The notes under the pieces: generated by a model
Told to the model about the DNA's origin: nothing
Databases searched by the model: none
The model's input: only the letters and a program-made list of their open reading frames with translations
Assembly (NCBI RefSeq): GCF_027853335.1
Contig: NZ_JAFEUS010000002.1
Span: forward strand, 1,348,514 to 1,412,513
DNA: 64,000 bases
Direction of reading: 5' to 3'
Origin: Leucobacter sp. UCMA 4100
GTDB taxonomy: Bacteria > Actinomycetota > Actinomycetes > Actinomycetales > Microbacteriaceae
Shown: positions 50,092-64,000 of the stretch, one piece after another
How positions within the stretch are numbered: position 1 is the stretch's first letter
How the letters are laid out: every line of letters begins with the position of its first letter
Made by a program: the position numbers and the translations under genes

Positions 50092-51084
50092 TTACTGGAA
50101 GCCGGGGTCGCCCAGCTCGTCGAGAATGCGCTTGAGATCGGCAATGGTCGCGAAGTCAATCGTGACCTGGCCCTTCTTAGCGCCCAGCTTCACCCTGACG
50201 GTCGTGTTGAAGCGATCACCGAGGCGTTCTGCGATGTCGTCGAGCTGCGCCTGCACGCCGCCGGCGCGCGGCTTCGGAAGCTTGCGCTTTGTGGCCTGCG
50301 ACGAGGCCTCCTCGGCCTGCCTCACCGAGAGTCCCTCGTTGATGATCTTGTCTGAAAGCTTCTCCATCGCCTCGGCATCGCCGTCGAGCGAGAGGATCGC
50401 ACGGGCGTGGCCAGCCGTGAGCACTCCGGCCGCGACCTTGGTCTGCACGTGCTCGGGAAGCTTCAGGAGGCGAATCGTGTTCGAAATCTGCGGGCGTGAA
50501 CGGCCAATGCGCTTCGCGAGCTCTTCCTGCGTCGTGCCGAAGTCTTGCAAGAGCTGCTGGTACGCCGACGCCTCTTCGAGGGGGTTCAGCTGTGCGCGGT
50601 GCAGGTTCTCGAGCAGCGCGTCACGCAGCATGTGCTCGTCTTCGGTGCCACGAACGATCGCGGGGATCGTGCTGAGGCCGGCGCGATTCGATGCCCTGAA
50701 GCGACGCTCACCCATGATGAGCTCGTAGCGGGGCTCGCCCTTCTTCGTCGGTGCCGGGAGAATCTCTCGCACGACGACGGGCTGGAACACACCGAACTCG
50801 CGAATCGAGTGCGTGAGCTCTTCGAGGGCCTCCTCGTCGAACTCGGTACGCGGCTGTACTCGGTTGGGCACGATATCGCTGAGGTCGAGCGTCGTGAGCT
50901 GTGCGCCAGGAACCTCGCGCAGCTGCTGCTCGTCAACGACGGTCTGCGCAACCGACGTTGCCTTGTCTTCCTTCGCCGGAGCATCGCCAAAGAAGACGTC
51001 GACTGGGCGCTCCTCGTTGGGATCCTGCTGCGGAATGAGCGCACCGATACCCCGACCGAGTCCTGACTTCTTTTTCGCAGCCAT
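50092..51084 (-). CDS. parB: Chromosome-partitioning protein ParB
   Basis: CTP-dependent sliding clamp that loads at parS; 330 residues. N-terminal ParA-activating segment (KKKSGLGRGIGALIPQ), ParB/Srx box NRVQPRTEFDEEALEELTHS and LIMGERRFRASNRAG with the CTP-binding GERRxR motif, helix-turn-helix about TQEELAKRIGRSRPQISNTI, and a C-terminal dimer domain. It starts directly after the parA TAA. parS sites lie at 52687, 59197 and 59239. Confidence 0.96.
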   Translation of the reverse strand: MAAKKKSGLGRGIGALIPQQDPNEERPVDVFFGDAPAKEDKATSVAQTVVDEQQLREVPGAQLTTLDLSDIVPNRVQPRTEFDEEALEELTHSIREFGVFQPVVVREILPAPTKKGEPRYELIMGERRFRASNRAGLSTIPAIVRGTEDEHMLRDALLENLHRAQLNPLEEASAYQQLLQDFGTTQEELAKRIGRSRPQISNTIRLLKLPEHVQTKVAAGVLTAGHARAILSLDGDAEAMEKLSDKIINEGLSVRQAEEASSQATKRKLPKPRAGGVQAQLDDIAERLGDRFNTTVRVKLGAKKGQVTIDFATIADLKRILDELGDPGFQ

Positions 51085-51993
51085 TTAGGCTCCTTCCGGG
51101 TATAAGCGGGCGTATTCAGCAGCGCTCCGCTCAGCAATCTCTGCAGCAGCTTCGAGGTAGGCAATCGCACCCACCGATGATCCATCATAGGCGTGCACGG
51201 TCTCGCCGTGGCTCGGAGCCTCTGAAATGCGAACCGAACGGGGAATCATGGTCGTGAGCGTTTGCGTGGGGAAGAACCCGCGCACCTCTTCAGCGACCTC
51301 GTTTGAGAGGTTGGTTCGCGAGTCGTGCATCGTGAGCAGAATCGTTGAGACGTGCAGCTGTGGGTTCAGGTGCTGCTCAATGAGCTCAATGTTGCCGAGC
51401 AGCTGGCTGAGCCCCTCGAGCGCGTAGTATTCGCACTGGATGGGAATGAGCACTTCTTGCGCCGCGACAAAGGCGTTCACCGTGAGCAGCCCGAGCGATG
51501 GCGGGCAGTCGATGAACACGTAGTGGTACATCTCGTCGCTCTGGCTCAAGAACTCAGCGAGTGCCTTCCGCAGGCGCTGCTCCCTCGCGACGAGAGAAAC
51601 AAGTTCAATTTCGGCTCCCGCGAGGTTAATCGTCGAGGGCACGCACATGAGGTTCTCATGGTCGGTGGTCTGCTGCACTGTGTCGCCAAGCTTCGCCTCG
51701 CCGAGCAACACCTCGTAAATGCTCGTGATGGTCGGGTCATGCTCGACTCCGAGCGCGGTCGAAGCATTACCCTGCGGATCAAGATCGATAACGAGCACCC
51801 GGGCGCCTCGCCTCGCGAGGCCAGATGCCAGGTTCACGGTCGTCGTGGTTTTCCCCACGCCGCCCTTCTGGTTCGAGACGGTCATGACGCGCGTGTGGTC
51901 GGGGAGTGGTGATGTCATCGATTCAAGCCTGCGTTTGCGCCGCACCTTGTCGACGAGCTGATCGCCCAGTAACGCGTTTTTTGGCTGCGTCAT
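51085..51993 (-). CDS. parA: Chromosome-partitioning ATPase ParA
   Basis: ParA/Soj ATPase, 302 residues, moves ParB-parS complexes to the cell poles. Deviant Walker A SNQKGGVGKTTT, then VLVIDLDPQGNASTALG and YVFIDCPPSLGLLTVNA. A 35-residue N-terminal extension precedes the first strand. AGGAG lies before the ATG. Upstream gene is rsmG (8-bp gap) and parB follows with no gap. Confidence 0.96.
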   Translation of the reverse strand: MTQPKNALLGDQLVDKVRRKRRLESMTSPLPDHTRVMTVSNQKGGVGKTTTTVNLASGLARRGARVLVIDLDPQGNASTALGVEHDPTITSIYEVLLGEAKLGDTVQQTTDHENLMCVPSTINLAGAEIELVSLVAREQRLRKALAEFLSQSDEMYHYVFIDCPPSLGLLTVNAFVAAQEVLIPIQCEYYALEGLSQLLGNIELIEQHLNPQLHVSTILLTMHDSRTNLSNEVAEEVRGFFPTQTLTTMIPRSVRISEAPSHGETVHAYDGSSVGAIAYLEAAAEIAERSAAEYARLYPEGA

Positions 51994-52686: not shown

Positions 52687-52700
52687 GTTTCACGTGAAAC
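52687..52700. other. parS site (ParB binding), between jag and rsmG
   Basis: GTTTCACGTGAAAC, the exact palindromic core of bacterial parS. It sits in the short jag-rsmG gap. Confidence 0.92.
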
Positions 52701-56964: not shown

Positions 56965-57331
56965 ATTTATCCACATCCACAGGAGGCTTGTGAATAACTC
57001 TTGATAAGTCATCCAATCTGTGGATAAGTTCTGGGCCGCTGTGGAGATCCTGTCATTCACAAGATCGGCATGATCAAGCCATTCCCAGCCCGTCCACCGC
57101 TTCTCCGCAAATGACAAAGATGTAGTTCCTTGTCCCAGAGCGGGCTGTCGGGAGTTATCCACAATATCCACAGGACTTATGACTATTACAGAATTACAAC
57201 TTATAGAGGCGAAACCCAATACCCAGGTGAAAACCGAAAATCGAGCGAGCTTCTGTGACACGCTTCGTAAGAGTTACAAAACTATGCAAAGATGTTGTTC
57301 GATAGTTTGTCATTCTGAGGAGGAGTAACGA
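56965..57331. other. Chromosome origin region (oriC), dnaA-dnaN spacer
   Basis: Perfect DnaA boxes at 56967-56975 (TTATCCACA), 57019-57027 (TGTGGATAA) and 57155-57163 (TTATCCACA); one-mismatch boxes at 56989-56997 (TGTGAATAA) and 57164-57172 (ATATCCACA). An AT-rich stretch (about 57172-57310) follows and could unwind. Position between dnaA and dnaN is the standard place in actinobacteria. The dnaN ribosome site AGGAGG is at 57317-57322. Confidence 0.85.
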
Positions 57332-58486: not shown

Positions 58487-59701
58487 GTGCAGATTCGTCA
58501 TCTCAGTCTTGCAAACTATCGAAACTATGCTCACGCTGAGCTAGTGTTTGCCCCAGGCATGAATATGCTGGTTGGGCGCAATGGTCAGGGCAAAACGAAC
58601 GTTGCAGAAGCGCTCATGTATCTCGCGACGCTTCGATCACACCGTATTTCGCAGGATGCTGCACTCATTAAAGCGGGGGAAGACTCCGCTATTATCCGAT
58701 GCAGGCTCGCCCAGGGCGAACGTGAGGCTCTTCTTGAGCTGCAGCTTAACCGCGGTAGCTCAAATAAAGCGCTCATTAACCGCCACAGCGTGAAAACTCG
58801 TGAACTCACGCAGCTTATCTCGGCTGTCCTGTTCGCCCCAGAAGATCTCATGATCGTTCGTGGAGAACCGGCCACTCGCCGATCGTTTCTTGACGATGCG
58901 CTTATCTCGCGTCACCCAGTGGCTGCTGGCGCCATTGCCGATTATGAGAAAATCCTCCGGCAGAGAAACACGATGCTCAGAGATTTCAAGCACACGGGCA
59001 GAAGCGCAAACTCGATCGAGACCCTCCTTGACGTCTGGGATGAGCAGCTTGTCGAAATGGGTTCGCAGATCATGCTGCACCGGCGAATGCTTATCGAAGA
59101 TTTACGAGATCCGCTGATCCAGGGCTATTTTTCGCTCGTTGACCAGGATCACCAGCCAACTATCGCGCTCATGGAAAGCGTTCAGGAGACACTGGGTGTT
59201 TCACGTGAAACAGGAGATGCGGCAACCGTAAGCGCGAGCGTTTCACGTGAAACAATAGCCGAAGAGTTTCGCGATGCATTGCGCCTCGTCAGGGGGAGGG
59301 AGCTCGAGCGCGGGCAGACACTCGTTGGTCCACATCGCGATGACGCGGTCCTTCAGCTGAAGTCGCTACCTGTAAAAGGATATGCGAGCCACGGAGAAAC
59401 CTGGTCCTATGTCCTCTCACTGAAGCTTGCCCTTGCGAGCGTTCTCAGCACTGACACCGTAGAGGGTGATCCAGTCTTGATTCTCGACGACGTTTTTGCC
59501 GAGCTTGATCTTGGTCGTCGTGAAAGGCTGTACGCTGCTGTCTCTGGTTATGAGCAGGTGATCGTAACAACTGCGGTCGAAGGTGACGTTCCGCAGGGGC
59601 ATGAGTGGCACACGATCCGCATCGAAGCCGGGGAAGTGGTTGCCATTGAACCGGTTGCTGCCCACGAAAGACCTGATCAGGCTGGTGATACTGATGAGTG
59701 A
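58487..59701 (+). CDS. recF: DNA replication and repair protein RecF
   Basis: SMC-like ATPase loading RecA at gaps, 404 residues. Walker A VGRNGQGKTNVAEAL, HRRMLIEDL region, signature-type LSLKLALAS and Walker B LILDDVFAELD are seen. Two copies of VSRET (about 239-243 and 253-257) are the translations of parS palindromes at 59197 and 59239, in a poorly conserved loop. GTG start; its end overlaps the DUF721 gene by 8 bp. Confidence 0.95.
   Translation: MQIRHLSLANYRNYAHAELVFAPGMNMLVGRNGQGKTNVAEALMYLATLRSHRISQDAALIKAGEDSAIIRCRLAQGEREALLELQLNRGSSNKALINRHSVKTRELTQLISAVLFAPEDLMIVRGEPATRRSFLDDALISRHPVAAGAIADYEKILRQRNTMLRDFKHTGRSANSIETLLDVWDEQLVEMGSQIMLHRRMLIEDLRDPLIQGYFSLVDQDHQPTIALMESVQETLGVSRETGDAATVSASVSRETIAEEFRDALRLVRGRELERGQTLVGPHRDDAVLQLKSLPVKGYASHGETWSYVLSLKLALASVLSTDTVEGDPVLILDDVFAELDLGRRERLYAAVSGYEQVIVTTAVEGDVPQGHEWHTIRIEAGEVVAIEPVAAHERPDQAGDTDE
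59197..59212. other. parS site inside recF (perfect 16-mer)
   Basis: TGTTTCACGTGAAACA, identical to the full consensus. In frame it encodes part of VSRET. Confidence 0.93.
59239..59254. other. parS site inside recF (second copy)
   Basis: CGTTTCACGTGAAACA, one base from the consensus, 42 bp after the first copy and in the same reading phase. Confidence 0.9.

Positions 59702-60246: not shown

Positions 60247-64000
<3,754 letters not shown>

Follow-up and report, generated by a model that had tools for sequence, protein, structure and literature searches.

Exact parS sequences within recF of Leucobacter point to a DNA site that sets the peptide it encodes

The recF gene of Leucobacter sp. UCMA 4100 contains two exact copies of the parS core, each read in the frame V-S-R-E-T. 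The best explanation, to which we give a probability of about 0.92, is that these palindromes are functional parS, that is, ParB-loading sites, and that the DNA site dictates the peptide. The window analysed is the whole 64,000-nucleotide stretch of DNA in which this gene lies. Here recF (58487..59701, + strand) encodes 404 residues and matches the family TIGR00611 (279.2 bits, cut-off 172); its best Foldseek matches are RecF entries, and its fold is like that of solved RecFs. The first site (59197..59212, no strand assigned) is a 16-bp perfect palindrome, TGTTTCACGTGAAACA, with its 14-bp core at 59198-59211, and codes for V238-S-R-E-T242. The second (59239..59254, no strand assigned) has a C at 59239, so it is perfect only over the 14-bp core at 59240-59253, and codes for V252-S-R-E-T256. 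Both cores are exact GTTTCACGTGAAAC, both lie in the recF codon frame and they are 42 bp apart. The first-pass annotation had described two palindromes sharing a frame, each giving V-S-R-E-T in a recF loop, and both were found exactly so. However, that both encode the same peptide is no special coincidence. The parS core can be read as GTT TCA CGT GAA AC (V-S-R-E-T) or TTT CAC GTG AAA (F-H-V-K), while TTC ACG TGA meets a stop; VSRET is one of two open frames.

The gene order of the window is taken to be trxB-trxA-parB-parA-rsmG-jag-...-dnaA-dnaN-recF-gyrB; most of these names are assumed from the translations, and those of RecF and ParB were checked. The parB gene (50092..51084, - strand) is the sole match to this ParB in the genome at E <= 0.001. 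It is adjoined by 51085..51993 (- strand), presumably parA from its translation. The oriC region is placed in the interval between dnaA and dnaN (56965..57331, no strand assigned), with DnaA-box matches at 56967, 57019 and 57155, where the box consensus and the two gene names are our assumptions. The gyrB gene occupies 60331..62331 (+ strand), its start codon having been chosen inside the listed open reading frame 60259-62331. Between rsmG and jag lies a third exact parS (52687..52700, no strand assigned). Measured from oriC, this site is about 4.3 kb to the left and the recF pair about 2 kb to the right, so that all three are within about 4.5 kb of it. Three good parS near the origin, including the jag-rsmG copy, had been claimed, and the exact copies at 52687, 59198 and 59240 uphold this, but a fourth, frame-adapted parS-like site in gyrB had been missed.

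Exact GTTTCACGTGAAAC occurs three times in the genome (2,843,863 bases, 2 contigs), always in the window, within a span of at most 6.6 kb around oriC, and the reversed control pattern occurs nowhere in the whole genome. When up to three mismatches were allowed, there were 9 copies in the window vs. a mean of 1.80 in 100 shuffled sequences (maximum 6). The same three copies match the consensus TGTTNCACGTGAAACA, given for Corynebacterium glutamicum parS in the available part of PMC7022226. There are 11 more copies with one mismatch in the genome, the gyrB sequence at 60767-60780 among them, and these may be secondary ParB sites. As a separate observation, the eleven (G000:C2, L004-L014) crowd toward oriC (KS p 0.0006; 0.0016 without gyrB), and the longest open frame of several gives a VSRET-like peptide; one of them, L004, outside recF, spells VSRET with a different valine codon.

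In an alignment of the ParB to 6t1f, the specificity positions 173, 179, 184 and 201 were read by us as R, T, K and G. Absolute conservation in ParB is reported for R173 and G201, and about 28% of ParBs are reported to have lysine or arginine at position 184. The genome's single ParB, which has the R and G that parS-binding ParBs conserve, appears to be a cognate ParB with parS-type specificity residues. We infer ParB occupancy and a role in segregation, which leaves room for another DNA-binding protein as the true ligand of the palindromes. This is highly improbable because the sites have the exact parS core, cluster at oriC and share their exact sequence with the rsmG-jag site next to parAB and with the parAB-side sites of other genera.

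Evidence that the DNA and not the protein is constrained comes from codon choice. It was evaluated in 55 distinct recFs with more than 49% identity and at least one exact in-frame site, and in a set of 60 that adds those of genus g6, using the first 440 residues of each. All 109 VSRETs in the 60 clade recFs (g1, g13, g44 and g6) are written as exact parS, although the chance of this, from codon usage in the rest of these genes, is 0.0011 per VSRET. A synonymous VSRET with a broken palindrome, which would speak for the protein, was searched for and none was found in recF among the 109. Furthermore, neither VSRET nor SRET is present in any of 125 other recFs, all lacking an in-frame parS. The peptide thus follows the presence of the site, a point that the first-pass annotation had proposed for checking. 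As a control, 95 RecF columns that are invariant in amino acid (Met and Trp excluded) were examined in the 55 rows. Only 3 use a single codon, one V, one R and one E, which from their letters we take to be part of the second VSRET; the commonest codon's share, averaged per residue, was 0.40-0.86.

The 55 recFs hold 104 exact sites and 7 that are one base off. All seven mismatches alter the peptide, giving VPRET (3), VSRGT (3) and VSRDT (1). In six of the seven it is one change seen on either strand (T4C/A11G, i.e. VPRET/VSRGT), which falls at N of the C. glutamicum consensus TGTTNCACGTGAAACA in the available text of PMC7022226. Protein-altering changes that nearly spare the DNA site therefore occur, while protein-sparing changes that break it were unseen in recF. 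That seven of seven are non-synonymous is not improbable by itself: by hand count 32 of the 42 possible one-base changes to the 14-mer alter the amino acid, and shared descent probably accounts for some of the mismatched sites. The telling point is the absence of synonymous change. Additionally, the base before the core is T in 56/104 sites (third-base background 18%) and the base after it is A in 51/104 (ACA background 11%), both toward the 16-mer T...A.

This pattern of conservation indicates that selection guards the DNA site and that VSRET is a by-product. Selection would act on the DNA, since ParB must recognise GTTTCACGTGAAAC, and the loop would tolerate a passenger peptide; VSRET can be regarded as the passenger because GTTTCACGTGAAAC in that frame spells only VSRE plus Thr. 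Alternatively, selection could act on VSRET as a RecF motif, which might contact RecR, RecO or the clamp, with the palindrome incidental. The peptide does recur in 60 clade RecFs, and in the structural model the second copy begins the arm helix. Nevertheless, this explanation is barely credible and was rejected on the codon evidence (109/109 exact parS): none of the 109 VSRETs has been rewritten synonymously, whereas other invariant RecF residues use mixed codons. The deviants exchange S for P or E for G or D and are still one base from parS, and sites 39-267 bp apart in a low-confidence loop leave no fixed protein geometry. Moreover, GFTWN is what near-identical DNA spells in gyrB of the clade and in the recF genes of neighbouring genera. 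The VSRET repeats in RecF of Leucobacter are not to be taken for a protein motif.

The loop that carries the sites (residues 236-253; codons 59192..59245, + strand) is predicted to be disordered. An AlphaFold2 model built from a 40-row alignment had a mean pLDDT of 89.7 and a pTM of 0.87, and places the loop between elements 231-235 and 254-267. The mean pLDDT of ten-residue blocks was 76 for 231-240 and 52 for 241-250, with residues 241-244 below 50. The VSRET copies are residues 238-242 and 252-256, the second lying where the predicted helix 254-267 begins. Alignment to RecF 5z67 shows a loop shorter by about ten residues there, and loop length varies among the clade recFs. The proposal that the recF loop has been shaped by the DNA site is thus sustained by the 109 exact spellings, the predicted disorder and the variable length. 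Neighbouring recF sites were 39 (27 cases), 42 (6), 45 (7), 48 (5) and 51 bp (2) apart, and more rarely 57 (2), 60 (2) or, once each, 81, 90, 99, 108 and 267 bp; the spacing is always a multiple of 3 because the reading frame requires it. Helical phasing of the pair as a requirement was considered and rejected, since spacings of 39-267 bp show no fixed helical register. The widest case is the recF of L200, in which the sites are 267 bp, or 89 residues, apart from start to start in an expanded loop.

The sites are conserved throughout the clade. From 57 genomes of g1, g13 (Leucobacter) and g44, recF was recovered in 55, and all 55 have an in-frame parS, including both g1 genomes and the single g44 genome sampled. 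At least two sites, with one mismatch allowed, are found in 54/55, 39-267 bp apart; the exact sites number two in 45 genes and three in 2, a single-mismatch site accompanies one exact site in 7, and the remaining gene has a single site. The pair is not indispensable because this last gene, that of L099 (G229), has a lone site. Each of the five g6 genomes has one exact recF site. In g13, exact parS were found in 52/54 genomes (three in 38, two in 9, four in 2 and five in 3); recF was likewise recovered in 52/54, and the remaining two, G330 and G333, are without a usable recF and without parS. Among 80 named RecF loci, two exact in-frame parS were seen in Leucobacter chinensis, whose RecF is 95% identical, in L. 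tardus and in two Leucobacter MAGs, and no exact parS in recF in the other 76. Of these, L. tardus and both MAGs belong to GTDB genus g13, as their identical recF loci show. When one genome from each of 34 further genera of the family was examined, exact parS was absent from recF in 33, and the 34th was g6. These species counts do not represent independent events.

A wider search used a detector for an exact parS followed, after 60-90 bases, by the RecF motif GGNCCNCAYCGNGA; such a detector is blind to parS elsewhere in recF. It returned only the window's own genome among 396 genomes of the order (362 outside the family) and among 396 of the phylum (390 outside the family). Within the family it found 14/388 genomes and 4/85 genera, namely g1 (2/2), g13 (9/9), g44 (1/1) and g6 (2/5); the three g6 genomes that it missed have the recF site at another distance. 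Two exact parS 19-49 bases apart occur in 60/398 family genomes. Thirty of these matches were read as loci, and recF lay beside 3 (G044, G300 and G143) and was absent from the short flanks of 27.

A single change accounts for the 60 recF-parS rows on a RecF tree of 132 rows built without the loop columns (SH-aLRT 85), giving moderate support for a single origin. Genus g6 stands beside the 55-row Leucobacter clade, with long branches flagged in g6. The simplest history would be one acquisition, of one site, in the common ancestor of Leucobacter and g6, and a later doubling in the Leucobacter line. One origin would also permit simple inheritance, so that the palindromes might be a relic or a mobile repeat with no present function. 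We consider this exceedingly improbable because the flanking and intervening sequence has diverged and changed in length, while the 55 recFs retain 104 exact sites and 7 that are one base off.

The sites also differ in position from those of related genera. In 97 loci without recF-parS, from other genera and some other families, the same exact 14-mer is found but to the left of oriC, with a mean of 2.00 exact sites on the left, 0.02 on the right and none in recF, over an interval that reaches from about 8-10 kb left of the recF start to no more than 3.6 kb right of it. The two exceptions on the right, L026 (at 1150 from the recF start) and L029 (at 1264), are Alpinimonas and a Microbacteriaceae MAG, and have an exact parS just beyond the recF stop codon. 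In the clade, 13 distinct recFs had loci reaching at least 6.9 kb to the left (L015, L016, L019, L183, L186, L189, L196 and L239-L244). All 13 have two or three sites in recF, and 12 have one exact parS 5.5-6.1 kb left of the recF start; in L240 (G291) the rsmG-side site is a one-mismatch copy only. Candidate ParB-loading sites thus flank oriC on either side in the Leucobacter clade. In some Leucobacter a further exact parS was observed 1.3-1.8 kb after the recF start, beyond the usual end of recF and before or near the gyrB start (L098 at 1335 and 1548, L131 at 1762, L192 and L194 at 1775, L196 and L201 at 1832).

In ParABS systems, ParA and SMC are recruited by ParB, which loads at parS and slides over neighbouring DNA as a CTP clamp. 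Here, ParB would load at the recF pair and the rsmG-jag site, so that oriC would be bracketed by loading sites, and after closing as a CTP-dependent clamp would slide across the oriC-recF-gyrB region and recruit ParA and SMC. ParB might instead bind the recF and gyrB sites mainly to tune expression of dnaA-dnaN-recF-gyrB and not for segregation. There is a precedent in Pseudomonas aeruginosa, where an excess of ParB lowers the expression of PA0004-PA0014 around parS1-4, and ParB at parS1/parS2 in recF is suggested as the likely cause for the dnaA-dnaN-recF-gyrB operon in the available part of PMC5521831. However, that same text reports that parB-null and parS-null mutants raise only PA0010-PA0015 and not the genes beside the intragenic sites. 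Moreover, the recF pair makes up two of the usually three exact Leucobacter sites (exactly three in 38/54 g13 genomes), so that segregation would otherwise rest on about one site. Expression tuning as the main role is therefore unlikely, and loading of ParB for segregation is preferred.

The fourth site, the variant GTTTCACGTGGAAC in gyrB (60767..60780, no strand assigned), is read as G-F-T-W-N (codons GGT TTC ACG TGG AAC); an exact parS there would be a stop codon. In each of the 36 clade gyrBs readable at this position (of 55 clade loci) these 15 bases are the same, whereas the invariant neighbouring residues V, R, L and S use several codons each. The variant was found in 0/5 g6 rows and 0/125 other rows, once the window's own L009 was set aside; the one other row with the site is presumably this truncated locus. 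The nearest other gyrB row has four mismatches to parS. The sequence is most simply a fourth, perhaps weaker, parS, in which one A-to-G change would keep Trp and leave two recognisable half-sites. It is probably a ParB-loading site, but it may be bound weakly or not at all. The 14 bases of the gyrB variant, again read as GFTWN, were also seen near the 3' end of recF in g4, g18 and g22 (one genome each; L109 at nucleotide 1126, L117 at 1147 and L237 at 1126, 0-based from the recF start), and these genera group next to the recF-parS clade on the RecF tree. Near the 3' end of Aurantimicrobium recF there is a one-mismatch copy, GTTTCACGTGAAAA, in the FHVK frame (L024, L025, L027 and L028, nucleotide 1076, 0-based; the peptide was read out for L024, L025 and L027). 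Both the GFTWN and the FHVK copies are taken as frame-adapted parS.

The recF-gyrB stretch could then be an evolutionary attractor for bacterial centromeres, which overwrite whichever frame they land in, a reading that we lean toward. The cases would be VSRET in Leucobacter and g6 recF; GFTWN, with the stop rescued by TGG, in Leucobacter gyrB and, separately, near the 3' end of recF in g4, g18 and g22; FHVK near the 3' end of Aurantimicrobium recF; and FHVE in Pseudomonas recF. If this is true, conserved proteins of replication and repair were rewritten in each of the three frames by the needs of segregation, which in Leucobacter also placed ParB and SMC loading on both sides of oriC. The recF sites provide a clean, genus-wide natural case in which amino acids of housekeeping proteins are set by a chromosomal DNA site instead of by protein function, and parS can evidently settle in replication and repair genes and persist. 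The case has an internal control, synonymous changes being absent and non-synonymous, nearly site-sparing ones present. Whether two-sided loading of ParB and SMC within the dnaN-recF-gyrB block alters segregation or expression is testable.

The presence of parS in recF is already known. The literature searched, mostly at listing level, gave no match for a VSRET pair across the genus, for the evidence from codons or for the variant in gyrB; 'VSRET' appeared in no paper of it, and its co-mentions of Leucobacter and parS were unrelated by title. In P. aeruginosa, parS1 and parS2 lie within recF (PMC5521831, PMC3909081, available portions), and any one of parS1-4 suffices for segregation (PMC4368675, available portion). 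The likeness to Leucobacter is that two parS in recF lie across oriC from parAB; in P. aeruginosa binding of ParB and the sufficiency of any one site were shown experimentally (available portions of PMC5521831, PMC3909081 and PMC4368675). The P. aeruginosa core is GTTCCACGTGGAAC, and the use of recF is apparently convergent because that lineage is unrelated. Its silent mutations fall at parS1 positions 2, 5, 8, 11 and 14 and at parS2 positions 5, 8, 11 and 14 (PMC4368675 Table 1, as available), from which we infer that these sites lie in the F-H-V-E frame and not in the VSRET frame.

C. glutamicum has an actinobacterial ParABS with a matching consensus and ParB-dependent loading of SMC at parS. 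However, only one of its ten parS (in trpCF) is in coding sequence, and the ten share one side of oriC, within a 35 kb region that lies 73 kb away, according to the available part of PMC7083940. In Caulobacter, the recF-gyrB region is a hot spot for parS insertion, with enrichment in recF, gyrB and the next gene, and the native sites lie in essential or costly genes. The difference is that this hot spot emerged from a transposon screen and does not represent native recF sites (PMC5815017, available portion).
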